Virus record (IMG/VR): IMGVR_UViG_3300023184_000444
Location: 1-27,180 of that record
DNA length: 27,180 bases
Source of the DNA: a virus
Reading direction: 5' to 3' (one strand)
Shown here: positions 24,778 to 27,180 of the stretch, piece by piece
Numbering within the stretch: position 1 is the stretch's first letter
How the letters are laid out: each line of letters begins with the position of its first letter
Position numbers and translations under genes: made by a program
The notes under the pieces: model-generated
Database searches by the model: none
What the model was told of the DNA's origin: nothing
The model's input: only the letters and a program-made list of their open reading frames with translations

Positions 24778-25294
24778 AACAGAAACAAAAGCAAAGATAG
24801 ATGCACTACTACCTACAACTGGACAAGATAAGTTTGGACAGTATGAGATAGGCTCACAAGGACAACGCAAGGCTGCTACATTAGTAGAGTATGCATACAA
24901 TGCTGATACAATATCAGATGATATGATACCTCATGTGTTGTTAGCACTCAAAGATATACAGGTACGTGACTATGCAATGGGACTTATAAATCCTAGGGAT
25001 GATAAAGGCTTATCGTTCTTTAAGTTATTAACAAAGCATGCACCTAAAAACTACAATGCTGCACCTACTACACTACTTGCTCTTGTGCACTACGAGAAGC
25101 ATGAAGATGGTAAGGCAGATGAATTACTACGACCAATGTTAAGAACAAATTATTCATTAGCAAGACTATTAAGTAGAGTGTTTGATTCTAACTGGCCTGT
25201 TGGTGCATTCGAAGCAATGCGTATGGAACTACACCCTAAAGTAAAAGCAGGTATATTCGGAGAGGAAACAAATGACAACAACAACAAAGAATAA
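24770..25294 (+). CDS. DUF4192-like protein, 174 aa
   Basis: 174 residues starting at GTG 24770 behind AAGGGAGAAGCAA, overlapping the previous stop by 8 bases. The segment YNAAPTTLLALVHYEKHEDG, then KADELL, NYSLARLLSRVFDSNWPVGA (about 95-146) matches the C-terminal half of DUF4192, a family I know from actinobacterial genomes and their phages, with unknown function and a tetratricopeptide-like helical layout. The N-terminal part of the canonical family is shortened here. It is the best single host marker in the window. It overlaps the DUF932 gene. Confidence 0.7.
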   Translation: MNKTETKAKIDALLPTTGQDKFGQYEIGSQGQRKAATLVEYAYNADTISDDMIPHVLLALKDIQVRDYAMGLINPRDDKGLSFFKLLTKHAPKNYNAAPTTLLALVHYEKHEDGKADELLRPMLRTNYSLARLLSRVFDSNWPVGAFEAMRMELHPKVKAGIFGEETNDNNNKE

Positions 25295-26279
25295 GTCAGC
25301 ATGGGTAAGAGGTGGCACTGCAGTTGAGGCTACCTCTGCCCGTGATGCAGCCATACAAGCAGGACTTAACTGGACTGTACGTACAGGTAAACTAACAGCA
25401 GAAGCAACACCATTTGCAATAGATGAACATGGTGTAACACCACCTACATACATAGATGTACCTAAGAAGCAGGCTATTATTCGTGAAGATAACAACACTG
25501 TCATAGGTGTAGTAGGTACTAAGTATAAGATGGTTCAGAACATGGAAGTGTTCAACGCATTGGATACATTAGTAGACTCAGGTGATGCAAGATATACTGC
25601 AGCAGGTGAGTTCAATGGTGGCTCTAACATATGGATGCTACTTGAGATACCACAAGGTATCAACGTAGCCAATGACCCACATGCTGCATTCCTGTTGGTT
25701 AAGACATCACATGATGGCTCATCATCAGTAGTAATCAAGCCAGTCATTGAGCGTTTGTTCTGTCATAATCAAATCAATGGATTGATTAGCAAGGGATATG
25801 CCAGAGGAACTAAAGGCTACAATGAATACACATATCGCATGACACATACGACTAACCAAGAACTATCTGTCAATGACATACGCAACATTACTAACCTAAC
25901 ATACACAGCCATACAAGACTATGAGTTAATAGCAAATGGATTGTTAGGGCGTAAGATGACACGTGAACAGACAGTCAACTTCTTCAAGGCAGTATGGCCT
26001 CTACCTAGTATAGTAGAAGACAAGCCATACGACTTACTCACCAGAGGTGAGCGCAAGCAACAGACTATAGCAAGAGATGCACGTGCTAGTGCATGGGCTA
26101 TCTACTCAGAGTCAGAGACACAAGAGAACATCAGAGGCACAGCCTTTGGTGCATGGCATGCAGTAGTAGAACATGCTGACCACTATGCAACAGGTGGCGC
26201 GTCTCGCCGTGCCGCCGCCACCCTGAGTGGTCGCAACGATAAGGTAAAGACTAAGGCTTTATCTTTACTTACAGTATAA
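25272..26279 (+). CDS. DUF932 family protein (TIGR03299-like)
   Basis: 335 residues, with TVRTGKLTAEATPFAIDEHG, PKKQAIIREDNNTVIGVVGTKYKMVQN and LVDSGDARYTAAGEFNGGSNIWMLL, then VIKPVIERLFCHNQI and FFKAVWPLP. These are landmarks of the DUF932 family, common in actinophages, plasmids and mobile elements, where it is often next to replication or recombination genes; the molecular role is unknown. The ATG at 25272 follows AGAGGAAACAA and overlaps the DUF4192-like gene by 23 bases. The gene ends with a GC-rich section containing a strong hairpin. Confidence 0.8.
   Translation: MTTTTKNKSAWVRGGTAVEATSARDAAIQAGLNWTVRTGKLTAEATPFAIDEHGVTPPTYIDVPKKQAIIREDNNTVIGVVGTKYKMVQNMEVFNALDTLVDSGDARYTAAGEFNGGSNIWMLLEIPQGINVANDPHAAFLLVKTSHDGSSSVVIKPVIERLFCHNQINGLISKGYARGTKGYNEYTYRMTHTTNQELSVNDIRNITNLTYTAIQDYELIANGLLGRKMTREQTVNFFKAVWPLPSIVEDKPYDLLTRGERKQQTIARDARASAWAIYSESETQENIRGTAFGAWHAVVEHADHYATGGASRRAAATLSGRNDKVKTKALSLLTV
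26178..26232 (+). repeat. GC-rich two-part hairpin at the end of the DUF932 gene
   Basis: GACCACT/AGTGGTC (26178-26184 with 26226-26232) encloses CAGGTGGCG paired with CGCCACC-C-TG (26191-26199 with 26216-26225, one bulged C). The 7+9 bp layout resembles the intercistronic hairpins elsewhere in the rightward operon, but here it is inside coding sequence, about 50 bases before the stop. Confidence 0.5.
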
Positions 26280-26329
26280 TTCTGTACGCATACTGCTTAG
26301 GCAGCAATAGCGCAGAACTCGCAGAATTT

Positions 26330-26400
26330 GTATAGTTATATCCTTAAACTATACAAGGGACGTTTCACTGGGTTGCTCCGCCAGTGGCGAACACGGAGCA
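26330..26400 (+). promoter_or_regulatory. Structured leader: AT hairpin plus H-type pseudoknot before the 147-aa gene
   Basis: GTATAGTT/AACTATAC (26330-26337 with 26347-26354) forms an 8-bp hairpin. It is followed by an H-type pseudoknot: stem 1 CACTGG/CCAGTG (26366-26371 with 26381-26386), stem 2 TGCTCCG/CGGAGCA (26374-26380 with 26394-26400), a 2-base first loop (26372-26373), no bases between stem 2 and the return strand of stem 1, and a 7-base last loop (26387-26393). These dimensions allow coaxial stacking. The ribosome binding site of the next gene begins about 11 bases downstream. Confidence 0.65.
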
Positions 26401-26423
26401 CACACAAACAACGAGAGGAACAA

Positions 26424-26867
26424 ATGAACACAATCACAATATCAGATGGAGAGAGTCACAACGGTGCCATGATTACATACACAGACCATGAGATAGCACG
26501 TATGATAGCCGAACTCAAAGACTACAAAGACAGACAAGAAAGACTTGGAGATGCAAATGTCAACCTCAACAAAGATATCCGTACGCTACGTGAAAAGGTC
26601 CGTGACTTCTTTAGTGAAGTTGAATGGTCAGACGGTGAGCAAACAGTCACTAAATCTGACGTCAATGAGTTACTTGAATCCATTGGTGCAAGTAGACTTA
26701 CATCAAGATACGGTGGTACATTCAGAATCACTGGTACCTTCCAAGTAGAAGCAGAAGATGCAGATGAAGCAGAGTCTATGTTTGTAGACAATGTAGATGT
26801 ATCGTTTAATGATGGTGATTACACCATTGACCAGACAGAAGTTAATGATGTAGAAGAAGATTACTAA
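26424..26867 (+). CDS. Hypothetical acidic protein, 147 aa
   Basis: 147 residues from ATG 26424, which follows GAGAGGAACAA; the upstream reading frame runs through the pseudoknot and is not counted. A helical, charged first half (MIAELKDYKDRQERLGD, then LREKVRDFFSEVEW) may form a coiled coil. The second half is a small beta-alpha unit (FRITGTFQVEAEDADEAESM) and an acidic tail (VNDVEEDY). Not recognised. The combination of coiled coil and small domain could be a regulatory or scaffold protein. Confidence 0.6.
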   Translation: MNTITISDGESHNGAMITYTDHEIARMIAELKDYKDRQERLGDANVNLNKDIRTLREKVRDFFSEVEWSDGEQTVTKSDVNELLESIGASRLTSRYGGTFRITGTFQVEAEDADEAESMFVDNVDVSFNDGDYTIDQTEVNDVEEDY

Positions 26868-27046: not shown

Positions 27047-27067
27047 ACTCGGCGCAACACGCCAGCA

Positions 27068-27103
27068 TCATCATACATAGTCCGTCACACTATGCTATGA
27101 TGA
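27068..27103 (+). repeat. 13-bp hairpin downstream of the zinc-finger gene
   Basis: TCATCATACATAG (27068-27080) pairs with CTATGCTATGATGA (27090-27103), 13 bp with one bulged base and a 9-base loop. There is no T-run. It separates the gene that ends at 27046 from the structured leader at the right edge; an attenuator or 3-prime-end stem is likely. Confidence 0.45.
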
Positions 27104-27104
27104 G

Positions 27105-27180
27105 AGCAGGTTAGAGGTGGCAGGGTTTTGGTTCTCTCCTTGTTCCTGCTCCTCTAATCTACTTAACAAGGGAGAACTAT
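27105..27180 (+). promoter_or_regulatory. Leader with Shine-Dalgarno-masking and competing pairings (runs off right edge)
   Basis: AGCAGG (27105-27110) can pair with CCTGCT (27145-27150), and TTAGAGG (27111-27117) with CCTCTAA (27151-27157). The arms alternate, so forming one pair constrains the other. GTTCTCTCCTTGTT (27131-27144) pairs with AACAAGGGAGAAC (27165-27177), 13 bp with one bulged base, burying the AAGGGAG ribosome binding site. The window ends with CTAT, so an ATG for the next gene probably completes just outside. Confidence 0.5.

Follow-up and report, generated by a model that had tools for sequence, protein, structure and literature searches.

The leader upstream of the gene at position 26424 in IMG/VR virus record IMGVR_UViG_3300023184_000444 contains a genuine H-type pseudoknot, which is evolutionarily kept across dozens of lake viruses. 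The window, by which we mean the whole stretch of 27,180 nt that was analyzed, probably derives from an uncultivated freshwater actinophage-like virus. This leader pseudoknot lies outside Rfam, covaries clearly, and occurs among exchangeable RNA modules, and a smaller covarying pseudoknot recurs at gene boundaries across hosts. The analysis suggests a gene-boundary role in general rather than a single-gene switch, and we infer, with a probability of roughly 40%, that the pseudoknot is a cistron-boundary element shielding or insulating the downstream mRNA segment.

The module that contains the pseudoknot, module A (the letters A, B, C, D, and so on were coined in this analysis), comprises an AT hairpin and the H-type pseudoknot and spans 26320-26400 (Table 1). 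When the sequence was reread, the stem, loop, and junction figures that an earlier note had given for the pseudoknot proved exact, with an inter-stem junction of 0, whereas the AT hairpin, put at 8 bp in that note, is a perfect 10-bp hairpin. A perfect 6 + 7 bp H-type pseudoknot with short loops was found once in the window when both strands were searched, the chance expectation being 0.023 per strand-window in Markov-1 simulations, and no second copy of pseudoknot A was found in the window. The ATG at 26424 lies 23 nt beyond the pseudoknot. For the protein encoded there, PHROGs gave a single weak match (E = 0.0037; function unknown); neither Pfam nor PHROGs gave an SSB match, and no toxin family was matched.

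Table 1. Features of the leader and its flanking genes (positions in the window)
Feature	Position	Strand	Remarks
DUF932 gene, 335 aa, upstream; its stop codon opens the leader	25272-26279	+	PF06067, E = 2.8e-31; phrog_1221
Module C: TTCTG...CAGAA stem with inner CTGC/GCAG hairpin, directly 3′ of the DUF932 stop	26280-26317	+	Exchangeable structured module
CGCA, 5′ edge of module A	26320-26323	+	Conserved in most copies
AT-rich hairpin, 10 bp perfect, 9-nt loop	26328-26337 / 26347-26356 (whole 26328-26356)	+	Sequence changes in relatives, hairpin retained
Linker GGGACGTTT	26357-26365	+	3′ end pyrimidine-rich in most copies
Pseudoknot stem 1 (6 bp), CACTGG / CCAGTG	26366-26371 / 26381-26386	+	Covaries at two pairs
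Pseudoknot loop 1, GT	26372-26373	+	Invariant in copies
Pseudoknot stem 2 (7 bp), TGCTCCG / CGGAGCA	26374-26380 / 26394-26400	+	Two pairs covary
Pseudoknot loop 3, GCGAACA, 7 nt	26387-26393	+	Consensus GCG[AC]ACA
Shine-Dalgarno (SD) GAGAGG	26413-26418	+	12 nt 3′ of the pseudoknot, past an A/C-rich spacer
Downstream gene, 147 aa, without known family	26424-26867	+	No Pfam match above cutoff

Homologues of the 26424 protein yielded 31 loci, a pseudoknot pattern scan of viral contigs yielded 75 stretches, and 55 distinct copies of pseudoknot A were aligned. The results showed that 98.7% of the pair cells in these copies were standard (stem 1 paired in 100% and stem 2 in 97.7%), compared with 23-54% of cells paired in slid-register controls. 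Two-sided changes were found at four pairs, two in stem 1 (C-G to U-A at each) and two in stem 2 (C-G/U-A/U-G at one and U-A/C-G/A-U at the other), and the covariation score was reached by 0 of 500 shuffles. The outermost pair of stem 2 was broken in nine copies, and the core of this stem is therefore 6 bp. Both loops were nearly invariant among the copies of the relatives (L1, GT; L3, GCG[AC]ACA). The earlier note had named covariation of both stems together with conserved loop bases as the support for a genuine H-type pseudoknot; both were found in the 55 distinct copies, with compensatory changes backing each stem. The AT hairpin before the pseudoknot persisted in nearly all copies with differing sequences, G-U pairs included, which points to RNA rather than DNA.

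A covariance model detected exactly one strong copy of A in 21 of 27 long records, the remaining six being without A. Pseudoknot A was confined to one clade of uncultivated actinophage-like freshwater viruses, with one copy per genome, and the large terminase of the window was nearest to that of the environmental virus ct2KA10 (63%), followed by Streptomyces phages (42-43%). A relaxed pseudoknot pattern found no further family members across viral contigs; 30 scattered matches to it in GTDB genomes had stems that do not pair and were dismissed as chance. Searches of an annotated phage collection by blastn and tblastn with the leader and the 26424 protein returned no relatives, and the sole blastn match to the pseudoknot alone, 17 nt long, was attributed to chance. 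At gathering level, Rfam gave no match for the window or for 14 related loci, in agreement with the earlier remark that the pseudoknot is not a recognised riboswitch class; the Rfam matches at the E-value level were let-7 noise on the AT hairpin. No tRNA or tmRNA was found, and searches of open PMC papers turned up nothing on such arrays or on noncoding RNA with DUF932.

The junction between the DUF932 and 26424 genes is highly variable among relatives and is the usual site of the array, measuring 16-20 nt when empty and at least 87 nt when filled (for contigs without annotation, simple rules were used to set the gene boundaries). Profiling of eleven modules in addition to A showed one array at each locus, with the types B-A, C-A, E-A, J-E-A, C-D, C-E-D, F-E-D, A-C-G-D, and others. 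Module C recurred in relatives with an altered closing stem (TCCG/CGGA or TTGG/CCAA). Except in locus L081, the last module of classified non-empty arrays was A or D, about 20-26 nt 5′ of the start codon, and the gene after A or D in classified arrays was nearly always 26424 or a homologue. Of the 66 counted copies of A, 59 had the start codon 19-26 nt downstream and 7 were internal, the DUF932 arrays with an internal A ending in D. When A was the last module, its distance to the start was 23 nt in 34 copies, 20 nt in 16, and 21, 26, or 19 nt in the others, and the spacing from the upstream stop to A ranged from 37 to 147 nt in relatives. No conserved promoter was found inside the array, and the TATAAT at the DUF932 stop was not kept in B-type arrays. 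Among the other modules, E (GUGAACCAGCGUAAGG...GAGAUGCAGGUAGUUU, with a variable closing stem) is a conserved structured RNA present in 39 viral stretches (e.g., L188, L217, L195, L241, and L255), and the arrays also hold the distinct structured modules G (L201 and L219), F (L217, L169, and L065), and I (L211), none of them in Rfam.

To follow turnover, 79 distinct DUF932 proteins were placed on a tree; gains and losses of A on it number at least 10, of which 6 are forced by well-supported branches, and the whole array changed at least 43 times. The nearest relative of the window, L181, has a DUF932 protein that is 96% identical but carries C-D in place of C-A. Of the 79 distinct DUF932 rows, 29 were without A, and in most of these 29 the slot is taken by pseudoknot D. 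The array of L043 and L055, including A, lies 5′ of DUF932, and that of L081 lies 3′ of the 26424 homologue and 5′ of a gene for a PD-(D/E)XK-type nuclease, more hairpins separating A from the nuclease gene. Because the array placement differs in these loci, A is not an operator dedicated to one gene; its earlier description as an element of the 26424 gene is not supported, given these placements and the rows without A.

Pseudoknot D, a minimal, widespread, and strongly covarying element with the consensus CACCUGAGYAWGUGNNUAAACUGCUC, resembles A in its H-type fold, its L1 of 2 nt, its L3 of about 7 nt, and its slot 20-22 nt before the start codon, but differs in its stems (3 + 5 bp, compared with 6 + 7 bp in A) and loop sequence. 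It is also found in many copies per genome and after stops, whereas A is single and occurs only near DUF932/26424 genes. A sequence-pattern scan placed D in at least 120 stretches of viral contigs; none was found in the window, and D had no Rfam match. Its loci were fetched by the CAC/GTG form, and D was then sought in them with stem 1 free. Among the matches listed, stem 1 was paired with other bases in 58 of the 60 copies that differ from the fetch pattern; stem 2 also covaries, an illustrative result since the alignment was chosen from paired copies. Outside the DUF932 set, the D sites (n = 176 among the matches listed) lay mostly 6-7 nt past a stop or 20-22 nt ahead of a start: 56 were found after stops only, 56 before starts only, 29 at both, and 35 at neither. 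The genes downstream of D are unrelated (glutaredoxin, PhoH, zinc ribbon, adenylylsulphate-kinase-like, CHAP, and RNase-H-like). Among the matches listed, a TATAAT was present within 100 nt upstream of 14 of the 56 5′-slot copies versus 2.6 expected, whereas the 3′-slot copies were not enriched. D lies between the genes of class II ribonucleotide reductase and glutaredoxin in Lentibacter and Celeribacter phages and 3′ of the reductase gene in Roseobacter phage SIO1 (AF189021, 22200-22226). D also occurs at L298, L284, L297, and over 100 further IMG/VR loci. Some D-like matches in phages of Erwinia and E. coli were weak and incomplete, lacked full stem 1 pairing, and were left out of the count.

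The earlier note had offered ligand sensing, a protein-binding operator, and nuclease resistance side by side, none being preferred. A general role at boundaries or in mRNA protection is favored over a gene-specific operator because A is gene independent and is interchanged with D. During initiation the ribosome covers about 20 nt 5′ of the start codon; at termination its cover extends about a dozen nucleotides past the stop. As a cistron-boundary element, A would work in cis on the polycistronic phage mRNA and mark the 5′ boundary of the downstream cistron, forming a compact block where the upstream edge of the initiating ribosome should fall. Once the upstream part had been cleaved or had decayed, exonucleases and 5′-end-dependent decay would halt at A; in an actinobacterial-type host, the halted nuclease would be an RNase J-like 5′-3′ activity. 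The downstream cistron would thereby remain intact, translatable, and uncoupled from the preceding gene. The AT hairpin may be part of the same block, and pseudoknots just outside the ribosome-covered limits would leave little naked RNA; arrays are lacking where the genes nearly touch. A compact viral RNA fold, the xrRNA, can mechanically stop bacterial RNase J1 in vitro (PMC5760640). The likeness of A to xrRNA, a compact viral RNA halting a 5′-3′ exonuclease, is one of proposed job: xrRNA is a ring-like fold around the 5′ end, whereas A is a simple H-type pseudoknot for which resistance is a proposal.

Several observations count against the cistron-boundary reading. The invariance of the A loops seems to exceed what a pure mechanical block needs; each genome that carries A has a single copy, found only close to DUF932/26424 genes, in contrast to the general D; and seven A copies are internal, far from a start codon. 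Placement at both stops and starts was observed for D and would extend to A by analogy. More broadly, and more tentatively, tailed phages of several host groups may bound their cistrons with a general class of small caps, each an H-type pseudoknot, represented by A in this clade and by D more widely. Such caps would be located past stops and ahead of starts, at the edges of the message that ribosomes cover, and would be traded as cassettes in modular intergenic RNA arrays. If so, pseudoknot caps would constitute an undescribed layer of phage mRNA organisation. Since cultivated phages (SIO1 and the Lentibacter and Celeribacter phages) carry D, the boundary and protection hypothesis is directly testable.

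The main alternative, though an unlikely one, is a translational operator or riboswitch, in which initiation at the downstream gene would be governed by the binding of a small molecule, or of a protein from phage or host, to the pseudoknot, as happens with gp32 on the gene 32 leader of T4. The fixed distance to the start codon agrees with this, and the near-invariant loops leave room for a bound protein or ligand. The pyrimidine-rich linker 5′ of stem 1 could also pair with the SD sequence (e.g., GCCUUUC/GAGAGG, -7.2 kcal/mol), but this pairing was not better than that of shuffled linkers (p ~0.1-0.6) and was weak in the window (-3.5 kcal/mol) and in L043, L048, L055, and L070. The array precedes different genes, A is swapped with an unrelated pseudoknot, and Rfam gives no match, all of which argue against an operator. 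In T4, T2, and RB69, gp32, an SSB, is autoregulated via a pseudoknot in the leader of its gene, and the T4 pseudoknot lies 67 nt upstream, the RBS there being spanned by A+U-rich UUAA(A) repeats (PMC3014915). A shares with these leaders an H-type pseudoknot 5′ of the ribosome site, with stems expected to be coaxially stacked, but lies 23 nt upstream behind an A/C-rich spacer, precedes a protein without an SSB match, and moves between genes; in distance, RBS repeats, and SSB gene it thus departs from a gene 32-type operator. The translational operator of rpsO (S15) likewise places a pseudoknot close to the RBS of a bacterial leader, but A is not gene specific and Rfam shows no sequence relation. 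Somewhat less probable still is an element on the ribosome side, where the pseudoknot would abut the initiating 30S and aid loading, or insulate the start from upstream ribosomes or structure, without nuclease protection. The start-codon distance is sharp for A and D, the spacer is A/C-rich and unstructured, and the array is missing where genes lie 16-20 nt apart, all in keeping with such an element; however, D occurs equally often just past stops without a nearby start (56 versus 56 sites among the matches listed), so a loading role does not explain D.

We consider it improbable that the array acts in trans, as an intergenic RNA that is processed out and whose modules target different host factors, serving as decoys or as antitoxin-like RNAs. 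That each genome has one array, that module types number at least 11, and that modules appear and disappear fast would suit such a role, but the fixed 5′ slot ahead of the start codon, the lack of tandem repeats of A, and the absence of a known RNA family do not. The short RNA ToxI of type III toxin-antitoxin systems, which is associated with phage-host conflict, resembles A in its H-type pseudoknot fold; however, type III antitoxins are tandem repeats before a ToxN-type gene, whereas A has one copy per record and no toxin match downstream. Least probable, and very much so, is a recoding signal or a transcription terminator or attenuator. In other viruses, frameshifting is stimulated by H-type pseudoknots whose loops are of similar size, but recoding requires a fixed spacing of 5-9 nt from a slippery site or stop codon, which the variable stop-to-A spacing in relatives does not provide, and no slippery heptamer at the right distance was seen by inspection. 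An intrinsic terminator consists of a G+C-rich hairpin followed by a U-run, but no T-run follows the pseudoknot (26401-26412 is CACACAAACAAC). The missing T-run, the variable stop-to-A spacing, and the chance-level linker-SD pairing together argue against a terminator, recoding, and simple SD sequestration.

Two other elements were noted farther downstream in the window. A hairpin, GGTTAGAGG...CCTCTAATC, lies within 27108-27176 ahead of a PD-(D/E)XK-type nuclease gene and is conserved in relatives with altered stem sequence. Its loop, UUCUCUCCUUGUU (27132-27144), is complementary to the SD region of the next gene, AACAAGGGAGAA (27165-27176), with a duplex of about -19 kcal/mol, and the element looks like a putative SD-sequestering pseudoknot switch. 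A second AT-rich hairpin, ATCATACATAGTCC...CTATGCTATGAT, is located 5′ of this element at 27047-27104.
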